A stretch of DNA of 64,000 nucleotides, from assembly GCA_001599915.1 (NCBI GenBank), contig BCIG01000008.1, positions 62,001-126,000 on the forward strand, written 5' to 3'. The notes beneath the pieces were generated by a model, which made no database searches, had not been told where the DNA came from, and worked only from the letters and a program-made list of their open reading frames with translations. Below, piece after piece: positions 3,249-53,073 of the stretch (position 1 is the stretch's first letter; each line of letters opens with the position of its first letter). A program made the translations under genes and the position numbers. Source of the DNA: Symbiotaphrina buchneri (Eukaryota > Ascomycota > Symbiotaphrinales > Symbiotaphrinaceae).

Positions 3249-5579
3249 ATGCTTCTAGCAGACAATACACCGATCCGACGACGCCGGAATGGAAAGCCAC
3301 CATCCTGCGAGCCATGCCGGAGAGGCAAGCTGGCCTGCGATCACACTTTGCCTGCCTGTGGACGATGTACACGCCGCGGTACGGCTTCACAGTGCATCTA
3401 CCATCCAGCGCCCATGACCCGGCCGAGAATGGACCGGCAAACGCCTACTGAGAATCTCACTGCTATTCCGGAGCAGCGGGCCGCTCCCGCACAGCTAACA
3501 CCAGCATCGACTACACCGGTATCAGTCCAGAGCTCCGCAGTACCGGAGTCGGCTTCCGACAACCAGTGGATGCCTGTCAAGCGCTTTTCTGGGTTCTTCG
3601 GTCCGACGAGCTTCTCGGCAATCTACTCCGAGAACCAGGGCGAGTTTGGAGCGAATGTCATGGACAGCCCGGCGGACGAGCTAGCTGCCAATGATGCTAC
3701 GCGTTTTGCCCCTCCGCTATTGTTCGGGGGAGCAGATGTTCAGGGCAGTGCTCGGCTGAATATGGGTGTCAAGATCCTGGCGCAACTTCCAGGGCATGCC
3801 GTCTGCCAACGGCTGGTTGACATTTTTCACACCATGGATGATGTCGTCATAATCGAAGGGATGATGCATCATACAGTCAAGGAATTGTGGGCGACGTTCG
3901 GCCGCGAACTAAAGGAACCAAAGGATCCTAAAGCGCTCTCCACCATCGCATCCAGGCTGTTTCAGAATGAGCAACAGCCATTACGGATCAAAGAGCGTGC
4001 GCAAGAATGGTTCGACACTTTTACAGGTAGCAACATGCGTTGGGAGTCGCTGGGGTTGTTGTTCTGTATGTGTGGCATGTCTTCGCTGTCACTGTTCGAA
4101 GCCGACCCACTATTTCAATCCGAATCTGTGGGAGGGAAGTACAACAGGAAAAGGTTTGCTTCAAGAATGTGCGAATGCGCGGAGGCGTGTTTGGTACTTT
4201 GTGATTATATGGATACTGTCAACGACTTGATTGTTGGTCTATTGTCAAGGATAGCATTGTTGAAGAGCACCGTGATGGGAGATACAAGTAAGTTGTATAA
4301 GGCCGTGCGGAGAACCGCTCCGGGGTAGAGTGATGGTCTCTGATCTTGCCTAGGCTACCTGGTATGGAGAAGACATGGTGAGAATGTTTCTGCTATTACA
4401 GCACTTGGAATCCATCGATACCATCCAGTGGAGAAAGTTACAGCAATCACGGAGTTTCGAAAGCGGATGCTTTCGTCCGCATACATCCTCGATAAGACCT
4501 TGTCTTCATTCCAAGGAAGACCACCGGCGCTAAGTCGACGCTACTGCGATTGTGAGCTGCCATTAGACCTTTCGGATCAGGAGCTGCTTCTGGACGTGGA
4601 CACGCTTCAGCGGGTTGTAAGCAGACTCGACCAGCATGGCTGGAACCCGGATTGGCGGGTATCCACTATCACAGTCAATCGCGCCTTATTCATGCTTTCA
4701 ATTGTCCGTGAGGAAATTTTGGAGATCTCTTTGGGGTCGAGCATTGAGCAAGCGGCGGCGGGTGCGAAAATAAGGTGCGTAGTCTTAGCCAAGATGAAGA
4801 TAATATGCTAACTTTTGTAGGCATGTGATTACACGATTACAGGAAACCTACAAGCAGCTTCCTGAACCGATTAGACTGACGCCTGGATGGAGTCCCCTCT
4901 TCAAGATAGCCGGCCGCAATGAGTTTTACCAAGCAATAACACGGCTAGAATATCTACAAATCCTGTTCCTTGTATTCCAGCAGCAGCGGCGTTTCGGAGA
5001 AGCCACGGAGGAAAATGGAAAGAACCTTTTGGACACTTCTAGAGAAATGCTTAGCCTTACCGTCCAACTTTGGATTCAGAGGGACAACATCCCGGAGCGA
5101 CATGGATGCCTTGACTGGACTGTGAGCTAGCCGCTTCCTCTTCCTGACCTGCGGTCAGACGCGATTCTCCTAGGCATGGCTAACAGAAGGAACAGGCTCT
5201 GACATATGGAGTCCCCGCGGCAGGTGCTCTCAGCCTACGCCTACTCGAAGAGATCAAGCAGCCCAACTCCGCCGGACCGTCACTCCTCCCCCGCTCAGAA
5301 GTCATACAGAACCTCAGCACGTTCATCGCATTTCTAGACTGGGTCCGTCCCACAGACCCCAACTACGACCTCTGCCACCGGATAAGCCGCGTTATACAGC
5401 ATGTGCTTGACCAGATCCTGGAACCGCCGCGTGTGGAAGAAGCGCAGACCGTACAGGTGCAGCCGTTTCAGTATGATACCGAGTTCCCGAATATGGATAT
5501 ACCTCTCGATGAGACCGAGTTTATGGATTGGCTGGGCGCGGTGGATTGGACGAGGGGTCCATATGTGGATCTGAGTTAG
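3249..5579 (+). CDS. Zn2Cys6 transcription factor with fungal TF middle region
   Basis: Nuclear DNA-binding regulator. Exons 3249-4287, 4354-4774, 4821-5121 and 5196-5579 join in frame to 714 residues. Near residue 20 lies a binuclear zinc cluster of the form CEPCRRGKLACDHTLPACGRC, with the sixth cysteine in SQCIYH. It is preceded by the basic stretch RRRRNGKPPS. The middle third (GRPPALSRRYCDCELP and following) is the alpha-helical part of the fungal-specific TF domain, and the C-terminus is acidic (DETEFMDWLGAVDW), possibly for activation. Introns are 46-74 bp with clean GT-AG ends. It is convergent with the beta-mannosidase pseudogene; control of the neighbouring sugar genes is possible but unproven. 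Confidence 0.9.
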
Positions 5580-5726
5580 GATGAATTAAATCTTCAAGAA
5601 TTAGACGTCCCAAGTCCACGGTCGTTTGGGGTCTAGGTATGCCTTGCACCTAGCTGTGGAGTTCTAAGTTTCCATATTGACTGATACTCTATGCAGCTGT
5701 CTACACCTAATACTGATCCACGATTA

Positions 5727-7440
5727 TCAAGCGGATCCAAGATGACGCGCCTTCAATTTCCATCCACCGTCTGGCATACTGTGACCTGTGGCAACTCTCA
5801 TATGAACGACGCGATCATGCCCCGAAACTAGGTCAAATCCATTATCATCGAAGCAACAGGCATCAGCCAGTTCAGCGTCGTCTGTGACTACAGCCAGCTC
5901 CAAAGCCTTCAAAGGGGGACCTTTTGCGGAGACAGAGTACGACAAAGTGTTGCAATTGCCAACTTTGACAGGCCCGATTTCCACAGCGGATTCGGAAAGG
6001 TCCAGATATTTCAACGGCTGTGGCCATTCCACGAAGCGGGCTACGACCTCGTCACCTTGGAGCAAGCGCACCGAGACGACGACTTGAGCTGGATCAGCGC
6101 CCTTGGGGAAGTCGACGCTCTGTAACTCCGAAGACCGATTTGGGTGAAGCACAACCTTGTCCTGGAAGTCTCCCAGCACGGATCCATCCGCCACTGCAAT
6201 GAATACCGCCTCGGGCGTCGCTTCTACCGGCTTGAGTGTAAGATTCGACGCCCACAACTCCACGTACGTTGTCCGCTCGATATACACTTGTGTGAATTCG
6301 TCCGCTGGGAGCTCCCTCACCCGCCGTGAGGCACCCACTATGACTGGTTCGAAGTCTCGCTTGGTGGTATAATATGCGAGTTTCCGTCGCATGAAACTAT
6401 CCGCAAGTGACCAACTGACAGCGGGGAAACAATCATTCAGCTGCCATATTAAGCTGCCGGCACATTCTTCTCTGCCGGGCTCTCGCCAAGGCCGACGGAA
6501 AGCGCGAAGGGCGAAATCCATGGCCTCGGCCTGTAGCACCTGCGTGGTATAGGCGTAGTCCTCCAGCGTCATGCCGTGCTTGAAGTTATCAATCAGATAC
6601 AAGGCGATCGTGCGTTGGTCTTCGGGCGCCATGTGCCACGCGTCCATGGTGCGAGACTGCGGATACTGTTCTTTTGGATCGCTGATTAACTGCTTCAGCG
6701 TGCGGATACTTGGATAGGACTTCATCCCAAACTCGCTGACGAAGCGTCCGGTCAGCTTCTCATAATCCTGGTATGGGTACCGAGGCTGATCAGCCATCCA
6801 AACACGCCAGGAATGCATGTCGCCGACGGTCGGGTCGTTGCTGTATGATCCGCCATATGGACTGCTGATATGATACGGGACGCGTGGGACCAGCTCCTCG
6901 CATACATCTTTCAGCAGCTTCTCGTAGTAGTACCGCGCCGGCCAATTAGTCTTCAGCCAACTTTGCGGGTCTTTGTCGGTCATGTCGTACTCGAGATGAT
7001 GGAGTTCAGCGAACATGTGATCCTCATTATTCCCACACCAGAGCACGATGCAAGGATGATAGCGCGTGCGACGGAGGTTATACTCGGCTTCCGCCTTGAT
7101 GGACGCCATCAGGTCTGGATTGACGGGATAGGCGCCGCAGCCAAGCCTGAAGTCGTGCCAGATAAGGATGCCCAGCTCGTCGGCGATGTCGTAGAATGAG
7201 TCATCCTCGTAGGTGCCGCCGCCCCAGACACGGACCATGTTCTGGTTACTCTCAACGGCCAGTTCTAGCTATGCTCAGTACTGCTCCGGCGTCAAGCGCA
7301 AGAGGAAGGTGTCTCCAGGGATCCAGTTTGTGCCGTGGCAGAAGATAGGGATGTTGTTGATACAGAAGAAAAAATGTACTGCCTTCTTTCCTAGGAAGAG
7401 GACATTGGACAAGTTCAGAGAGACAGAGGCCAATATGCTT
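5727..7440 (-). pseudogene. GH2 beta-mannosidase, N-terminal half destroyed
   Basis: Remnant of a glycoside hydrolase family 2 beta-mannosidase, which removes terminal beta-mannose from manno-oligosaccharides. The 3' two-thirds is open from about 7238 down to 5727. It keeps the acid/base motif (CGNNEDH) and the nucleophile motif (FVSEFG). Upstream on the same strand the family text continues: a GTNWIPGDTFLLRLTPEQY stretch, then two in-frame stops (TGA, TAG) exactly where R/Q-type codons are expected. Both stops are explained by C-to-T changes. Further upstream, near 7370-7440, homology persists in altered frames (FFFCINN, PLPRKEG) and then melts into AT-rich RIP-mutated DNA. About 300 N-terminal residues, including the sugar-binding domain, are lost. 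No signal peptide can be judged. It formed a divergent pair with the MFS transporter at 11032, plausibly for uptake and hydrolysis of mannosides. Confidence 0.88.
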
Positions 7441-8960
7441 AAATGCTGTATCTAGACCGTTCTTGATAATAATTATAATAGTATATAAAGGTTGTAAGCT
7501 GAAGCCTATAGGGTACTATAGCTACAGGTTTATGATAGAGAACATAAACTTAGAAGAAGGGTCAATAGTGAATATCTATAACCTTTTACCAGCAGGGTTT
7601 ATAAACATTATCATAACTTTCTATCTACTGAGATTTAGGCCCTTAAGCTTTATAATCACTGTTACTATAATTGATTAAAGATCATCTGCCATCTTGATAT
7701 CTATAACCAGATCTGTTATTTATACAATATACATCTTTAAGTAAATAAACCTGTACAGGTTGATTGTTATCAACATTGGATCTTTAATATACTTATTTAA
7801 TCAGTAATCATTAATTAAAGCTATTAGGGAAACAAAATAAAACAATACTAATCTTATCTATAATGGTAATTAATCTTTCTAATATTTAACCATAAAAAAT
7901 TACTATTTTAGAATAAATTTTTAAACCTTTATTCTTTCTTTAACCTTTTACCTATTAACTATACTAATTTAAACTATAGCTTTAGCTTATTACCTTTTAG
8001 CTTTACATTTACTATAATATTGATTTTATACTTTAAAAACATATTACTTATCTTTATAACCAGTTTATTGTTAATCTTAATTACTATAAATATATCTAGT
8101 CTTTTAAAGATAAGTATATGTTTCTTTTTTTATTCTTTTATGTTTACAGTTTAAATTTTAGATTTAGAACAGGAATCTTTTAAAATATAAAAAGCTATAT
8201 AGTATAGCTATGTTATTTTGTTAACTTATTATATAACATGCTGGTTAAGATTATAAGTTAAATCAAAAATAAGATTATATAAAAAAAGATTAAGATAGAT
8301 GTTTATTAAAAAGTTAATAATAAATAAAAAAGACTTATCTACAACATTGGCCTGGTAGAACTTTTAGCTTTTATTTATCAAAATACAAGTTAATAAAAAA
8401 GGTATTGTTTATATAAAAAAGAATCTTAAATATATAGTTTTAAAGAAAAAAATAACAGGTAAAACATAATTAAAAGTTAATTATAGTTTTGAAATTATTA
8501 ACATTATAACATGATTATAAAGTAAAACAGGTATTAGATTAAGCTTTTAAAAGGATTTCTTTTATAATAATATATTATTTTAATAATAAAGATTTTAATA
8601 CCTGATATCTTTAATTATCTATCTTTTTTAGATTAAATAACTAGGTATTATTTTATTAAATTACCAATGTTAATCTTAGTTTTTAAGGTTTAATATACAA
8701 TATGTTATTAAAGTATAAAAAAACAAGATAATCTTATATATATTCCTTGATATATATAGCTTTTATAGATTAATCTATAGATTGTTATATTCTTTAAATA
8801 TATCTTTTTACTTCTTTAAAATTAACTAATAACGTAATTGAAAACATTTATAACAGAGTTAAAATAGCTTAAATAATAATAATAATTAAAAAAGATACCT
8901 TTATACTTGATTATTATATTTTTAAAAACATATAATAATGATAATAACATAACTTTATAT
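7100..8960. repeat. Tandem duplication, unit A (left copy)
   Basis: Left copy of a direct duplication. It spans the 5' part of the beta-mannosidase, the divergent promoter and the first ~70 bp of the MFS transporter coding region. Positions 7143-7300 align base by base with sequence 1,877 bp downstream. Its right end (8663-8944) aligns with 10819-11100 at an offset of 2,156. Differences are almost all C/T or G/A. In this copy the mannosidase edge is nearly clean and the transporter edge is heavily mutated; for example 8885-8940 is a RIP version of 11041-11096. Confidence 0.85.
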
Positions 8961-10535
8961 TTAATTATAATGTTTATCCTGTTAATCTAGACTTAATAAT
9001 GTTTATTAAGACAAAAGGTAAATATAAAGTCATGTTAAATAAAAATGTCCAGCTTGTCAACAATGTTATAGAATAAGTTATCTTTATAGATGCTATTGTC
9101 CTAGATATAGATTATATTCTAATTACTTTTGATAATTAATTCTAGTTATGTTTAATATTGTTTTAGTATTAAGTACAAGAAAAAAGTATCTTTAAAGATC
9201 CAGTTTATATTATAACAAAAGATAAGGATGTTATTAATATAAAAGAAAAAATATATTGTTTTCTTTCCTAGGAAAAAGATGTTAGATAAGTTTAAAAAGA
9301 CAAAGACTAATATGTTTAGATATTATATCTAGATTATTCTTGATAATAGCTATAATAATGTACAAGAGCTATAAACTAAAGCTTATAAAATATTATAACT
9401 GTAGATTTATAACAGAAAATTTAAATTTAAAAAAAGAATTAATAATAAACATCTATAGCTTTTTATTAACAAGGTTTATAAATATTATTATAACTTTCTA
9501 TCTATTAAAACTTAGATCTTTAAGCTTTATAACCATTATTATTATAATTAATTAAAGATTATCTGTTATCTTAATATCTATAACTAAATCTGTTATTTAT
9601 ATAATGTATATCTTTAAGTAAATAAGTCTGTATAGGTTAATTATTATTAATATTAAACCTTTAATATATTTACTTAATTAATAATTATTAATCAAAGCTA
9701 TCAGGAAAACAAAACAGAATAATATCAATCTTATCTATAATAACAGTTAATCTTTTTAATATTTAATCATAAAAAATCATTATTTTAAAATAAATTTTTA
9801 AGCCTTTGTTCTTTTTCTAACCTTTTACCTATTAACTATATTAATTTAAACTATAGCTCTATTATTACCTTTTGACTTTATATTTATTATAATATTGATT
9901 TTATACTTTAAAAACATGTTATTTATCTTTATAATCAGCTTATTATTGATTTTAATTATTGTAAATATATCTAGCCTTTTAAAGATAAGTATATATTTCT
10001 TTTTTTGTTTTTTTATACTTATAGTTTAAGTTTTAAACTTGGAATAGGAATCTTTTAAAATATAAAAAGCTATACAATATAATTATACTATCTTGTTACC
10101 TTATTGTATAATATATTAGTTAAGGTTGTAAGTTAAATCAAAGATAAGATTATATAAGAAAAAATCAAAGTAGATATTTATTAGAAAGCTAACAATAGAT
10201 AAAAAGGACTTATCTATAGTATTAATCTAATAGAACTCTTAGCTTTTATTTATCAAAGTATAGGTTAATAAAAAAACATTATTTATACAGAAAAGAATCT
10301 TAAATATATAATCTTAAAAAAGAGAATAACAAGTAAAATATAATTAAAAATCAGTTATAGTTTTAAAGGCTGTTAATATTATAATATGACTATAAAGTAA
10401 AACAGGTACCAGATTAAGTTTTCAAAGGGATTTCTTTTATAATAGCATATTATTCTAATAGTAAAGATTCTAGCACCTGATACTTTTAGTTATCTGTCTC
10501 TTTTAGATTGAATAACCAGGTGTTATTTTATTAAA
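7460..10535. other. AT-rich RIP-mutated block
   Basis: Three kilobases of very AT-rich DNA with no credible genes. Short open frames at 7463-7678 and 9340-9555 are two copies of the same non-coding sequence. Paired comparison of the two duplication units shows one-directional C-to-T and G-to-A changes, which is the mark of repeat-induced point mutation. Mutation is densest in the middle and fades at both outer ends (before about 7460 and after about 10380). Confidence 0.85.
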
Positions 10536-11100
10536 GACAACATTAAGACTATGTTGTTGATCATGCAACTTGACAAAACAAAGATTGATTTCTGCTGTTA
10601 TAAGTGCACTATACAGAAAAGCATAACCTGATCTTAGCCAAATCTGCTGTAATACAACATATAGTCATTGAATAAAGGATTACATTTTCAGTGAAATACA
10701 GAGTTTACAGGGCATTGCATAGGGTTTTCCTGCATCTTAACCTTTTAAAGCAACGTTGAGCTTCCCAAAATAGACCGTATGCCTGAGCGTATACCGATCG
10801 ATAATATCTCATAGCTTCGCCGGTGTTGGTCCTAGCTCTTAGAGTCTGATATGCAATATATTGTTAGGGTGCATAAAAGCAGGGCAATCCTGCATATATT
10901 CCTTGATATATGTAGCTCTTGCAGATCAGTCTATAGATCGCTGCGTTCTCCAAATATATCTCTCTACTCCTTTGGAATCAACCAATAGCCCAACTGAGAA
11001 CACTTACAACAGAGTCAAGATGGCTTAAACAATGACAGCAGCCAAAAAAGGCACCTTTACGCTCGGCCACCGCACCTTTGAGAACGTGCAATGGTGGCGA
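8961..11100. repeat. Tandem duplication, unit B (right copy)
   Basis: Right copy of the direct duplication. It begins with a heavily mutated copy of mannosidase 5' sequence: 9092-9240 is the RIP version of 7215-7363. It ends with the clean promoter and start of the working MFS gene. It is about 280 bp longer than unit A because of a block at about 10536-10818 with no partner in unit A. The junction between the units lies near 8945-8985 and is blurred by mutation. Confidence 0.85.
10536..10818. other. Unmutated ~280-bp block present only in unit B
   Basis: Normal-composition sequence that starts abruptly after RIP-mutated DNA. It has no counterpart in unit A, where flanking homology closes up near 8660. 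No open frame, terminal repeat or RNA gene was recognised. It is either an insertion into unit B after RIP or sequence deleted from unit A. Confidence 0.6.
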
Positions 11101-13040
11101 GACCCCAACCTACGCACTCTCTACCTGCTACTGCTCGTCCTGCTTGTGATGTCCATGACCAACGGCTACGACGGCAGCATGATGAATGCGCTGCAGACGA
11201 GCGAGCGCTGGCAGAACTACTTCGGACACCCCACCGGATCGCTGTTGGCGTTCTATAACCTCTCTTTTGCGCTGGGCCAGCTGGTTGCTATTGTGCTGTT
11301 CCCATTCCCTGCCTTTATAGCGGATAAGTTTGGACGTCGGTGGGGCGTGGTCATCGGCAGCTCGATTAGTCTTGTTGGTGTGGCGCTCCAGGCGGCGAGT
11401 ATTAACTGTATGTGCGACCGTGATTGGAATGGGACAAGCAGATTGCTGACCGCTGGATCTAGTTGCTATGTTTGTCGTTGCGAGATTTGTAGTTGGTTTT
11501 GGAGGTAAATACTCCCAAACTTCTAATCCCGGAAACAGCGGCTACTAATATCAAATGTAGTGATGGTCGACCATGGCAGCGCTCCTCTTCTAGTCACTGA
11601 ACTCGCGCATACACAACATCGTGCAAAGATTACAGCCGTCTACAACTCGATGTGGTATTTTGGCTCGATCGTCGCCGCATGGGTAACGTTCGGCACCATC
11701 AACATCAACAGCGAATGGGCATGGCGTGTCCCCTCTCTACTGCAGTCGTTCCCAGCCCTCATCCAGATCATCTTCATCTGGATCCTGCCAGAGGTATACT
11801 TTCTTCCACCACATCTGTCAGGGTCCATCTAACATATCAACCCAGTCACCCCGCTTCCTCATCGCCAACGACCGGCACTCCGAGGCCTTGGCCATCTTAC
11901 AAAAATACCACGGCAACGGCGAAATCACCGAGTTCGTCGCCGCCGAATACATCGAGATCAAAGAGACGCTCGCTCTGGAACGCGAATTCGCCAAGAAGAT
12001 CAAATGGGCGGACCTGCTCTCGACGCCGGGCAACCGCAAACGCACGCTCATCTGCTTCATCCAGGGCTTCTTCTCGCAGTGGTGCGGCAACGGCCTCGTC
12101 AGCTACTACCTTGTGCCCGTGCTGCAGACGGTCGGCATCAATGGCAGCACCGAGCAAGCGGGCCTGAATGGCGGCTTACAGATATGGAACTTCATTGTCG
12201 CTATGTGGGCTGCGTTCAATGTTGATCGCTTCGGCAGGAGGCCCATGGTCCTCGGCAGCACGGGGGCGATGCTGCTGATCTTCATCATGTGGACGGTGTT
12301 GAGTGCGCGGTATAACATTACTGGCGATGCTGGCGATGCCAAGGGCGTCATCGTCGCCATCTTCCTGTTTTACACGGCTTTCAACTGTGGCTGGTAAGGT
12401 TGCCCGCAATTTTGAATTGCGTTGTACGACGCTGAGTCGCTGACATCTTACAGGCAAGGACTCGTCCTGGCTTATCCAATTGAGATTCTGCCTTACGAGA
12501 TCAGAGCAAAGGGTCTTAACGTTGTATTCTTTGGAGTGTCGACTTCCCGTACGTTGGCTCCGCGTTGTCTACCCCAAACATGACTGATCTGTTGCAGTTT
12601 TGAACCAGTATATCAACCCCGTCGGCCTCGAGAGTCAAGGATGGCGCTTCTACATTGTACGTCTGCGTTCCTGCTTCGACGATATAGTTACTAATACAGT
12701 CCAAGTTCTACTGTGTCTGGCTTGCCGTGGAACTAGTGGTCGTATACTTTCTATGGGTGGAAACAAAGGTAAACTCTCCAGCCTACGTGGCTCTCTCCGT
12801 GTTCTGCGGACACCTGTTGACGGTGAACAGAATACACCGTTGGAAGAGATTGCGAAGTACTTCGACGGCGAGAACGCAAAGGTGGGAGGTGGCGGGGCTA
12901 CGGCGCAGGCGAGCGTGGCTTTGGATGAGCTCCGGGCTAAGGACAAGCTGAGCAAATTGACGGGTGACGACGCTGTTATGGCTGTGAAATTCGGTGGTGA
13001 TGGCGGGCATGTACAGACGGTGGAAGATGTTCAGCCCTGA
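11032..13040 (+). CDS. MFS sugar transporter (lactose/oligosaccharide permease type)
   Basis: Plasma-membrane sugar/H+ symporter of the fungal sugar-porter family. Eight exons (11032-11407, 11463-11504, 11561-11793, 11846-12393, 12454-12548, 12598-12656, about 12697-12767, about 12832-13040) join in frame. Sugar-porter marks are visible: NGYDGSMMNAL in TM1, ADKFGRRWG in the first cytosolic loop, a PESPRFLI-type motif across the third intron (PE then SPRFLI), NVDRFGRRP in the second half, and an ETK motif after TM12. The overall pattern (WRDPN start, FNCGWQGLVLAYPIEILPYE) is that of LAC12/cellodextrin-like carriers rather than hexose carriers. The promoter and first 70 bp are duplicated and RIP-mutated upstream, but this copy is clean. 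It is paired divergently with the dead beta-mannosidase, so mannoside uptake is a reasonable guess. Confidence 0.9.
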
Positions 13041-41834: not shown

Positions 41835-44032
41835 ATGTACACAATCATGCGGCCGGCTCTGGCAATAGGATTCGTAGCTTTGTTTGCACGTGCAATACGT
41901 GCTTCATCCTCAGCTTCCAGCACTCCAACCTCGAATCTCACCGCCACTGGTCTAAGCCTTCCAAGCTCCAATGTCGTTTGTTAGTCCCCATCGTCGATAA
42001 CAGACATATGTATTTTCGGCTGAAGATAGTCGTGTGGTCCGCAGGTTTCGGCTCGGACAACTCTTGTTGTTATAACTCAACCTTGGGCTATCTGGACAGT
42101 TGCCTCTGGGAGGACGCCCAGATTTATAACTGGCTTATATCCCAGACATGGGATACGGGTTCATCGGCACCAAACTGGTTCGCGCAACTAATGAATGCAA
42201 GTATAGAGCGAGATTCCGGTGAACAGACTGTCCACTTACGGGTTTTCAGCGGTATGGCTGGAATAGCAATCTCCAGTGCGACCTCACCAACGGATGTGCG
42301 AACATCGGACTGGTAGGAGCAGGGAGCTCCGATCCGGATACAGTCAAGGCGTTTATTGCAGCCACCATAGTGAACAACTACATGATTTATCAGTATGCAA
42401 ACTATTACATGTTGACGAATACCATGAATGGCTGGTTGCAGGAGACCGGGACGTGAGTCATATCAATGTTGCTTGATTCTTTGAGACGTGCTGACCAGAG
42501 AAAACAAAATAGGTTGACAACAATCTGGAATGATCTGGTCCCTTCTTCTGCAAGTCCGGAAAGCGACACCGCACTTGTCTCTGATGGACTAGGTATCCTT
42601 GGAGCTTGCCTTGGTATTCTAGCCACAGTTCTCAGTGGTGGTGCAGCCAGTGCTGTTGCAGCTGGAGTCTTAGCTGGATCTCTCGCTGTGAGTCAATACA
42701 CGTCGTTTGTTTTCCACCCTCTAACAACCCCTCTACAAGGCTGGCGGGGGTATGGCAGAGTTGATTCAAGAAATGGGCGGCTCGTCTGTGGCCGGAAGTT
42801 TCATATCCATTGATCAGACCCGACAGTATTTCCAAACAGTGGAAAATACATGGGAAAATCAGATATCTTCGGTTGTCGATGAGTTCCTGACCAACAGCAC
42901 CTCGGCCGCGGACATTCTTGACGCAAACGGCCTAGGAAGCACATGGACTTCAATCAGCAGTACAGAGACTGACTTCTGGAATAACCCCCAAACATTTGAG
43001 GCATCCTTCTTGCGCATCATGAATCAGTATGCTTCCGTCAAGATTTGGCAAGCTCTGGGGATCTTCCTGCAGTAAGTGACATTTTAGCTGTATTCCCCGA
43101 ACACATGCTGACTCCAGGGAAGTTGGGAGACCGGATGTCCGAGTAGTGCACTAGGTGCGTCTCTCGAAGAGCTGATCATGCCTCTACTTACGCCATCTGC
43201 TTTATCTAGGACAGGACTATCCGTCACAAGATTGTTTCAGTTACACCGGGAGTAACGTGACCATATCACAGGCATATGTACGCAAGAGCACTGAATGGCG
43301 AGGGAATCATTATTAACACTCAATCCACAGATCTTCCCTGTCCATTATGTAGGCGACAGCTTGGGTCGAACACCACATTGGGTCCGCGAATACTCAAATT
43401 CCGTCAATTGGGACAACTGGAGCAGCAATAGCTCTGTCAACCTTACGCCTTGGCAGCGTGTATTCGTCGGCTCTTACTACTGCCAGACGATGCAAGGAGG
43501 CAATGCGTTCGTCCCAATCCCTGCTATATCCATCTCAGCTCGTTCAAACTGACTCGGAAAATCCAAGGTTCCCTGCAAGCCCATCCGCAGCGTATCCCGC
43601 CGCGCAAATCAATCTGCAGTTGCTCTTCGACAACACCACCGACGCCATGGACGTTCCCTGTTTCTTCAACCTGCCCATTTGCTTTGATTCGGGCGATGTC
43701 TGGAGCCAGGCCAGAAATTCTCCGCAAACTTGTATGCCGACAGCAAGACTACCAGCTGGATCTGTCGTAGGCTTACCCTTTTTTCTAGGTGTTACGGGCC
43801 ACGGAGGCAGTGATATCGTACCTCTCAATCAGCTTCTGAGTGGTCAAGCTCCATATTATAAACCGTACAAGAGCGACAACTTTGGCTTAGACAACTGGTG
43901 CGCAAGAACGCTCGGGGCGGTATCATTTGGTAGAGACACGTAAGAGATGTCCCGCCCTCTCGGCATTTTGTATAGTGAGATTGATGAACACTGATTTATC
44001 ATTGACGCAGGCTTGATTTGAACAAATGCTAG
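41835..44032 (+). CDS. Large secreted protein of unknown function, many introns
   Basis: Starts with a signal peptide (MYTIMRPALAIGFVALFARA). Short introns join pieces in frame, among them FGSDNSCCYNSTLGYLDSCL, RYGWNSNLQCDLTNGCANIG, WNDLVPSSASPESDTALVSD, WETGCPSSALGQDYPSQDCF, WSSNSSVNLTPWQRVFVGSY and DNWCARTLGAVSFG. The last exon gives LDLNKC and TAG at 44030-44032. Paired cysteines and several NxS/T sites suit an extracellular protein. A Gly/Ala-rich hydrophobic helix (LGACLGILATVLSGGAASAV, near 42600-42690) could insert in a membrane. Between about 43510 and 43580 the frame changes with no evident intron, so the model is uncertain there or the gene is damaged. Family not recognised; a domain of unknown function is likely. 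Confidence 0.6.
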
Positions 44033-45099
44033 TGTTGTTCTAGTATTTCATCCCGTCGATTGATTCAGCGAGCCAGCTCGACTGGGAGAACGATGAAAGC
44101 AAGGGGATCGGTTCTGGAGTATGTACATTTGACATGAGAAATATCTATGTATCTCTTCATGAATTCCCTCTAGCTTATGTTTGGCTATGTCCTCTAAGAA
44201 AATATCCTATCAATTCATTGTGCTCTACCCCTATCATGAATTGTTGTATGTTATATCGTAATCGGTAATGGCACGCCCCGATTTTGGTCACCACACGCCC
44301 TCTCATCTACTCGCATAGTATCATGTCTATTCGCAATCACATCTATCTATCGTATCTCATCTATCTGGTTAAACTTCAGAATTGACAAATCGATCAACTA
44401 AACATCTGATTCAGAATGACATATGTCAGATCTATCCGCATATCTGCGTCATATCGTATCTTATCAAGCTATATCAATCTTGTCAAATGACAGACTGATT
44501 GACCGATTGATTAATTATCCTATGACAATATCTTATATATATACCTTTGTCTATCTATCTGGTTTATCTCTGTGATGGATGGACTGCTTAACCCACCAAT
44601 TGATCAAGGATGTCATCTTATACCTGTTCATATATTTATCTGCATATCAAAGTGGGATTGATCTGCACAGTCCACCAAGTCGTCCTCTTTCTTGTATGAA
44701 AAGGTCGTACAGTTACCGAAAACAGGGGCGTGCCATTACCGATCACCATGTTCTATCCTGTCTGGAATTATTGGGGGTACCTTCGGCCTCGGCATTTCCC
44801 CGACGGATGCCGAACCCCCAAAATGGTCAGTAGCCGAAAACCCTGCTGCCGATCCCTCAACGACGATATATCGCTCCTAGTTCGGAACTATAGCAGCTGT
44901 TAATGCTCTAGCAGATGCGGAGTTCATTATAAGCCATAGCCCATACATAATTGTCTCGGACCTGCTGTTGTGGTTCGATAAATCACCAGTCGGGCGTGCA
45001 TTTGGCCGCGTTCCTACGCTGGCAATCAGAGGGGCCCAGTCAGCAAGAGGGCCCGCAGCGTTCACAGCCCCAATGACGCAGTATGGGCGTCGATGAAAG
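44033..45099. other. Intergenic with inverted-repeat element
   Basis: AT-rich and without a supported gene. ATCTATCT-like simple sequence near 44340-44570, inside the inverted-repeat element listed separately. Confidence 0.4.
44261..44743. repeat. 483-bp inverted-repeat element, candidate MITE
   Basis: Left end ATCGGTAATGGCACGCCCC (44261-44279) is repeated exactly in reverse at 44725-44743, and the match goes on with lower identity for some 14 bp inward. The interior is AT-rich and non-coding. No clear target-site duplication was found, so a mobile origin is likely but not proven. Confidence 0.6.
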
Positions 45100-51709: not shown

Positions 51710-52194
51710 CTTGAAGGTTGATGCCTTATAGGACAAAGAACGACCGATGTTCTTTCCAATCAGATCACTAGGCGGTTAATAGGCTGTGGGTTCGCTTTGA
51801 GGATCAAGAATTGAATGTCAGAGCTGTGTTTGTGAGATATACCATCAAAGTCACAACTCACAATCGACGGCGATATCAATCAGGCGGGATAACCCGATCC
51901 GTAAGCAGCAAAATAGCCACTGAATATTAAGGCCGTCCCTGCTCAGGGCCGTCTTGTCATTGGTTAGGAGACAAAGGTGGGGATGAGGGGTGGCTTATCG
52001 CACTGATAAGCTGATCCTTCTCCGACGGAGCGCCGGACCTATCACAGCACACATCTTGGTAGAAATGCGGTTACCGGCCAAGCAAGGCGCAGCTATAGAG
52101 AGAGTTGGGAAAGAGGCAGGAGAGTCGGATCAATCGGCTTCTGCAGAAGGTTCGCAAACTGAAGCTTAAACCGTCAGGGTGCCATTATGGACTG

Positions 52195-52324
52195 TAAACC
52201 ATTAAGGAACCGTGAACCATCCAACAACCGTACCTAAACCGTCCAACAACCGTAAACCGTCCAAAAACCGTAAACCGTCCAAAAACCGTAAACCGTCCAG
52301 CAACCGTAAACCATCCAAAAACCG
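52195..52324 (+). repeat. 18-bp minisatellite, seven units
   Basis: Seven head-to-tail copies of TAAACCGTCCAAAAACCG. The third is 22 bp long because of an extra TACC-like insert, and the first two have diverged. The array ends in a partial TAAACCG. Confidence 0.93.
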
Positions 52325-52425
52325 TAAACCGATCGCTACGGCACTTGGTAGTTACAGTCCACCGTAGTACTCTTGTCTACAGCAGAAAATGGGCTAACTG
52401 GCAGGTACCGACGACTAGCGCGTCC

Positions 52426-52462
52426 GGGGGGTGGGACAAAAAAAAGTGTCCCACCCACCCCC
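52426..52462. repeat. G/C-rich hairpin with poly-A loop
   Basis: GGGGGGTGGGAC (52426-52437) pairs with GTCCCACCC-ACCCCC (52448-52462) around a 10-nt loop made mostly of A. It is followed by TGGTGTTGTTACCAA, which resembles the TGGTGTTGCTACCAA of the repeat at 63714-63879. Confidence 0.7.
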
Positions 52463-53073
52463 AGCTGTGGTGTTGTTACCAACCACAAATGGTGAACCGC
52501 ACCGCCGAGCTTACAAACGTGAAACAAAACCCGATACAAACAGTTATGGGATCTTTTTTCTCAAGAATCATGTTGTAGTTCCTTGGGTCACAAAGACTGT
52601 CAATTTTTAACATACAGTAATATGGAAAAATCAAAGCTGATCATGAATGGAATCTTGCAAGGTAATCCTCATCATTTTCGTATAAATGAGAATCTCCAAC
52701 ACGTTTGGCTAAATAATAGACTTCTAGGCCGTGGAGCGCTCAGTACTGAGGTAGTGGCACTCTGTATCTCGGTCATAGATTCTCCAATCTCCGCTACATT
52801 AATACATCCAAAAGCCACCCACGTGACGGGAATCATCAGCTGGTCAAGTGAGGCTGAATCCCCCGCTCCACTGCCGATGGCTCTCATCCATTCCAACGAG
52901 TCCAGAACTTGCGGTCTCAGATGATTTGTTGCTCTACAATCTCTCCAGTGCACTAGTGGTTCACGGCTTTGTTGACCCACGCTACCCCGTTCATGAAGCT
53001 TGCGATACGCAGCCATATCCTTAGCCTTTCCTTTAACCTGCAGAGGGCAGCTTAACGGCACCAGCGGTAGCTC

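Follow-up and report, generated by a model that had tools for sequence, protein, structure and literature searches.

We analysed a 64,000-nt stretch of the genome of the ascomycete Symbiotaphrina buchneri (contig BCIG01000008.1, positions 62,001 to 126,000; hereafter the window), and all coordinates below are positions within it. Between a broken beta-mannosidase gene and a sugar transporter gene with an open reading frame, the window contained a head-to-tail direct duplication, copy A at 7139-8955 and copy B at 9016-11111. The copies had diverged almost exclusively by C:G to T:A transitions, which occupied the DNA around the junction and spared the outer end of each copy. We infer that repeat-induced point mutation (RIP) was the agent and, tentatively, that the mutated zone was fixed by position rather than by pairing alone. 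The features at the locus were as follows.

5727-7238, minus strand: open remainder (503 codons) of a glycoside hydrolase family 2 (GH2) beta-mannosidase pseudogene, its C-terminal part
7139-8955: copy A, based on self-alignment with 9016-11111 and on direct repeats D1-D5 (spacing 1874-2156)
7139-7439: nearly unmutated outer left end of copy A, GC 52.5%
7269-7277, minus strand: two stops interrupting the mannosidase frame (residues 475 and 477 of P0002, which is copy A translated with X at stops), in the clean edge of copy A
7440-7860: intermediate zone of copy A, GC about 33% dropping to 16%, copy B being flat at the same columns
7440-10386: contiguous mutated zone across the junction, GC 15-29%, with step fits at 7440 and 10386
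7851-8300, minus strand: N-terminal domain PF22666 of the same mannosidase, in the mutated part of copy A
8956-9015: junction of A and B, 60 bases, GC 17%, assignable to neither end of the unit
9016-11111: copy B, based on self-alignment; the last 10-13 bases at the right end, with three transversions, are uncertain
10386-11111: nearly unmutated outer right end of copy B, enclosing the bases found only in B
10536-10816: stretch found only in B, 281 bases, GC 36%, based on an alignment gap
11032-13040, plus strand: sugar-porter-type major facilitator superfamily (MFS) transporter, eight exons, 543 aa, open frame

The two copies were defined by a transition-tolerant self-alignment of the window, in which their register was constant. 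The alignment ran without gaps over 7139-7984 of copy A and then contained gaps of two, one and one bases and a single gap of 281. An earlier reading made from the sequence alone (the sequence-only reading) had described two direct copies of one segment lying head to tail, and the alignment bore this out. It had also regarded the duplicated unit as a divergent promoter. An intergenic stretch was indeed inside the unit, but it was only the smaller part, about 0.5 kb of copy A and 0.75 kb of copy B when its border with the mannosidase is estimated. The unit comprised the 5' half of the beta-mannosidase gene, this intergenic DNA and the first ~27 codons of the sugar transporter, and was mostly mannosidase coding sequence, with PF22666 at 8300-7851 of copy A. 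Alignments extending the homology into the 60 bases of the junction scored about as high as shuffled sequences did (12.2 versus a mean of 13.5, standard deviation 2.3, and 16.0 versus a mean of 13.0, standard deviation 2.1). A transposon origin of the 281 bases found only in B was unsupported, as no repeat of at least 10 bases paired their ends; shorter target-site repeats were not tested.

The copies differed at 409 of the 1814 aligned columns, with 400 transitions and nine transversions. The core of the alignment held 391 transitions and four transversions in 1788 columns, a count that omits the columns outside 7150-8940 of copy A (26 of the 1814, with nine transitions and five transversions). 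Such C:G to T:A change with almost no transversions was what RIP is expected to leave. RIP is a process of the sexual cycle that needs a RID-type methyltransferase and favours CpA in most fungi. With the clean copy at each polarised end taken as the ancestor and the two ends summed, 37/46 CpG, 63/85 CpA, 35/67 CpC and 48/92 CpT sites were mutated, a weak preference in which near saturation blurs the differences between contexts. Both strands were equally hit (43/40 in the right part of A, 47/49 in the left part of B). A strand-run test found no runs or tracts in these two parts (z of 0.79 and -1.23, respectively); the lack of tracts fits several rounds of RIP, yet provides no evidence for them.

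The breadth of the target context could be taken to favour decay of the usual AT-biased kind, or a fault of assembly, over RIP. However, under neutral decay one would expect transversions and gaps to be more numerous than the core ratio of 391:4 and the three gaps of one or two bases plus one of 281 bases. Moreover, copies that differ at 409 of 1814 columns would be hard to obtain by mis-assembly of one locus. We rejected both ordinary divergence and assembly artefact on the 391:4 ratio and the near absence of gaps, and an origin of this kind appeared very improbable.

The position of the mutations was the second main result. We expressed the mutated share of a copy as the fraction changed among the sites at which the other copy keeps C or G. 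Over the columns of A 7139-7439, copy A was mutated at 2/62 such sites and copy B at 96/156. Both copies were hit over 7440-8511 (70/176 in A and 121/227 in B), and the shares were 19/39 in A and 2/22 in B over 8512-8660, followed by 88/130 and 2/44 over 8661-8955. The outer end differed from the rest in each copy (Fisher p of 1e-14 for A and 4e-16 for B), and none of 100000 permutations gave an A edge as clean as the observed one. Mutation did not cover the whole homology, since the outer ends were spared (2/62 in A, 2/44 in B); we regarded mutation across the full homology as a usual rather than a defining trait of RIP. The clean duplicated sequence amounted to 300 bp at the outer end of A and about 445 bp in B (10386-10535 plus 10817-11111).

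According to the sequence-only reading, the inward halves of the copies were heavily mutated and the outward halves almost clean. The polarity was found at both ends, but only the outer ends, rather than the halves, were clean. The same reading had named transversions as common as transitions, or an even mutation density, as findings that would speak against it. Neither occurred: nine of the 409 differences were transversions, and the density was far from even (2/62 versus 96/156 on the left, 88/130 versus 2/44 on the right). What it proposed, a tandem duplication mutated in the manner of RIP but clean at its outer ends, was supported.

The DNA between the outer ends formed one continuous mutated zone (7440-10386), and the flanks were not mutated. 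Namely, GC content was 55% at 6800-7138 and 57% at 11112-11400, and 11 consecutive 500-bp scanning windows from 7501 to 10500 exceeded the usual RIP index thresholds. The combined RIP index was negative in scanning windows starting at 6001-7001 and at 10501-11751. By flank GC and RIP indices alike, RIP-type change was essentially limited to duplicated DNA. Three other scanning windows in the 64 kb passed the thresholds (starting at 12501, 52001 and 52251; GC 45-52%); the signals at 12501-13000 and 52001-52750 were probably due to chance. A further low-GC stretch at 44001-44750 (GC 39%) had RIP indices opposite to those of the mutated DNA and was therefore probably not of the same origin.

Judged by its sequence, the mannosidase gene on the left is a pseudogene, broken in both copies. 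The open frame at 5727-7238 matched Mannosidase_ig (PF17786, E 3.7e-17), and the ten best solved beta-mannosidases aligned to it from their residue 366-378 onward (best E 7.3e-65). Since the matches began at about residue 370 of the solved enzymes, the N-terminal part was missing from this frame. The N-terminal domain PF22666 was instead found in the mutated zone, at residues 134-283 of P0002 (E 7.6e-11, 42.8 bits versus a cut-off of 27). The two stop codons at 7269-7277 lay in the clean edge of A, and copy B carried stops at the same two codons in the A/B alignment. The piece between the N- and C-terminal parts was recognised once two reading frames were joined near 7370. On its own, the frame carrying this upstream piece matched no Pfam family, and in the PDB it matched only four auxin transporter sequences (E 0.02-0.04). 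A frame change near 7370 was moderately, not firmly, supported, since the piece was recognised only after the joining. The probable position of the change (7360-7400) was at an A/T run and was common to both copies. Because A and B were ungapped near 7370, the frame change, if real, would be shared and would probably predate the duplication; alternatively, it arose twice. This suggests that the mannosidase may already have been broken before the duplication. The open remainder had no match in a viral contig collection.

The transporter on the right was different in this respect. Its exons were placed by hand at GT..AG sites, and the joined translation had no internal stop over 543 codons. The stretch 11726-12397 matched PF00083 (E 5e-29) and TIGR00879 (E 1.5e-24, below the full-length cut-off of that model). 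The first codons of the gene were in copy B, and their wrecked counterpart in copy A, from 8876, lacked a start codon and was interrupted by five stops within 27 codons. The transporter start (11032) was in the clean outer part of B. The sequence-only reading had placed the real mannosidase body in the outward half of A, but no intact gene was there: the gene was broken, its N-terminal domain was in the mutated zone, and two stops were present even in the clean edge. We also observed that a Zn2Cys6 regulator (PF00172), the mannosidase pseudogene and the open-frame sugar transporter were grouped within 3249-13040. Perhaps this region was a small sugar-use cluster that lost its enzyme to the mutation described here.

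The state of the two genes bears on the possibility that RIP was even and that only chromosomes whose outer ends had escaped survived, through selection for the mannosidase on the left and for the transporter on the right. Because the transporter start was present and its frame was open, selection can explain the right edge. In contrast, it cannot have kept the left edge for the sake of the mannosidase, which was dead in both copies (the N-terminal domain in the mutated zone, the shared stops and the probable, shared frame change near 7370). As a cause of both clean ends, selection was thus improbable. The sequence-only reading had suggested either a spatial limit of RIP or that later selection or gene conversion kept the edges; of this, selection on the mannosidase was contradicted by the pseudogene, and selection on the transporter remained conceivable on the right, given the open frame of 543 codons.

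The two boundaries of the mutated zone were not alike. From 7139 onward, the GC content of copy A in successive 120-bp steps was 58, 49, 37, 33, 28, 23 and 16%, then level, and that of copy B at the matching columns was 14 to 23%. Within the mutated part, GC in A was 104/360 at 7440-7799 versus 108/598 at 7800-8399 (p 1.1e-4), and at the same columns B had 57/360 versus 104/598 (p 0.59). With the neighbour context modelled, the plateau of A still sloped, with mutation rising (likelihood ratio 5.9, n=176). Thus, the mirror-image gradient of the sequence-only reading had the right direction at both ends but not the same shape, as A faded over several hundred bases and B stopped sharply at about 10390. 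A step fit over the whole of A, which gave 8131, was set aside, since a count limited to sites that B has kept gives a biased picture of the middle.

The sharp right edge could be expected if both copies had undergone RIP over their full length and their outer ends were later cleaned in meiosis, by gene conversion or crossing over with a homologue that was neither mutated nor duplicated. Conversion events would begin in the shared unique flanks, and the inner ends, having no such flank, would stay mutated. This scenario accounts for the restriction of clean sequence to the outer ends, and it is compatible with a left edge that a step fits as well as a ramp. The clean lengths, 300 and ~445-726 bp, also match the order of published conversion tracts, namely 950 and 284 bp in Neurospora crassa and 539 and 432 bp in Zymoseptoria tritici (PMC10294615). 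However, two events would be required, and the left one had no evident benefit because the mannosidase was still dead. A single haplotype should also give a step, yet A was intermediate over 7440-7799. Finally, the clean edge of A shared the two stop codons of B, which would be unexpected from a clean donor unless that donor was already broken. We regard conversion as the main rival of a junction-centred mutation field, though unlikely as the principal cause of the clean ends; the two are not fully exclusive.

The 281-base gap offers another account of the right side. If the indel predated RIP, then the repeat effectively measured about 1.5 kb (7139-8660 with 9016-10535), A 8661-9015 was a mutated linker, and B beyond 10535 was spared as an unpaired flank. 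Mutation between repeats (PMC4858203) would then explain why A 8661-8955 was hit and B 10817-11111 spared, and the homology beyond the indel was short (295 bp). On the other hand, B was nearly clean already from 10386, that is, 150 bp ahead of the indel, and the left edge was left unexplained. A pre-existing indel appeared possible, if doubtful; it is a variant of the junction-centred explanation that concerns the right side only, and its probability is not exclusive of the others.

The explanation that we favour, tentatively and with somewhat less than even confidence, is RIP on a tandem repeat with a mutation field that was centred near the junction and faded outward, as the main cause of the pattern. 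In a filamentous fungus, a segment of ~1.8-2.1 kb gave rise to a head-to-tail duplicate, and RIP would then have changed C:G to T:A at ~60-70% of such pairs across one zone of ~2.9 kb spanning the junction. The zone would stop inside the outer limits of homology, by 300 bp on the left and by ~445 duplicated bp on the right. Its extent might be set by position within the looped repeat pair, with nucleation at the junction, or close to it, and outward spreading from there. The right edge was perhaps sharpened by selection on the transporter promoter or start, or by the interruption of homology at the 281-base indel. In favour of such a field, the left edge was clean even though the mannosidase there was dead, and A was intermediate at 7440-7799 while B was flat over the same ancestral sequence. 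The slope that persisted in the plateau of A with neighbour context modelled was a further point in its favour. One symmetric function of distance also fitted A and B together, with a best centre of 9075 and a range at 2 log units, 8975-9175, that overlapped the junction. Moreover, every outer site was paired with a homologous site that fared the opposite way, and pairing alone therefore cannot set the final mutation load; for the same reason, position and not only pairing may have set the zone.

A number of observations weighed against a field of this kind. The drop of GC in A from 58 to 37% over 7139-7498 does not count as a gradient: there was little mutation in A compared with B in this interval, and GC retained in at least one of the copies also fell, from 60 to 32-50%, so that the drop was due to ancestral composition or to mutation common to both copies. 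The plateau of B had no slope (likelihood ratio 0.34, n=123). On the left, where the fits were restricted to the part in which the partner copy was evenly mutated, a step at 7440 fitted as well as a ramp (-119.6 versus -120.1). On the right, the boundary was abrupt (best step 10386, 2-unit interval 10386-10401), and a spreading zone alone does not predict this. The symmetric fit and a logistic fit over all of A lean on partner-kept sites, a choice that enriches protected contexts. The target context was also broader than that of classic RIP, as CpC and CpT were changed at about half of their sites. Finally, RIP is known to leak into flanking DNA in Neurospora (PMC7296669), and one repeat family of Stagonospora nodorum had slightly more RIP toward its ends (PMC2621366).

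Taken together, the opposite fates of the outer ends suggest that position inside the repeat, beyond mere repetition, decides where this anti-repeat defence strikes. In a more specific form of the junction-centred explanation, RIP on tandem repeats would act on the DNA inside a loop made by pairing, starting at the junction and spreading outward for ~1.5 kb; we consider this doubtful but worth stating. If it were true, a natural tandem duplication would preserve such a mutation field at base resolution. Repeat recognition and mutation have been reported as separable (PMC4858203), and how a recognised repeat becomes a mutated stretch is the unsettled question that this locus touches. The locus would also be an example of RIP ending one gene while the adjoining gene keeps a working start. 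A field centred on the junction is the shape to seek in other tandem duplications. Our searches of the open-licence literature, from which older RIP papers are mostly absent, found no report of a natural tandem duplication whose outer ends had been spared.

A close natural counterpart is the zeta-eta region of Neurospora crassa, a tandem duplication degraded by RIP with a unit of ~0.8 kb that contains a 5S rRNA pseudogene. It is likewise a head-to-tail duplication that diverged by RIP-type transitions; unlike the zeta-eta unit, the unit in S. buchneri spanned parts of two protein genes. Mutation of the DIM-2 type between close repeats depends on DIM-2 and on heterochromatin factors. In Neurospora, single-copy DNA between close repeats can be strongly mutated, with few mutations outside the duplication (PMC4858203). 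This was the pattern of the repeat-linker-repeat constructs of Gladyshev and Kleckner, with 802-bp repeats and a 729-bp linker (PMC11969663), and the locus described here resembled them in this respect. However, these constructs were engineered and were studied with known RID and DIM-2 genetics. In a partial-homology construct, a distal portion of ~130 bp escaped mutation (PMC4858203), and this escape was tied to the pattern of partial homology, whereas the homology of the spared ends in S. buchneri was continuous except for the 281-base gap.

With respect to target context, the locus was similar to the MATE transposon of Aspergillus nidulans, in which RIP prefers CpG and CpA (PMC2621366), in that a weak preference for both was seen here. 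The difference was that MATE is represented by transposon copies, while the present case was a tandem gene segment in which CpC and CpT were also mutated at about half of their sites. In a 14-kb duplication of Zymoseptoria, 240/242 mutations were in CpA (PMC10294615). Although near-saturation obscures such differences, the context in S. buchneri was broader than in the Zymoseptoria duplication and nearer to that of MATE in A. nidulans.

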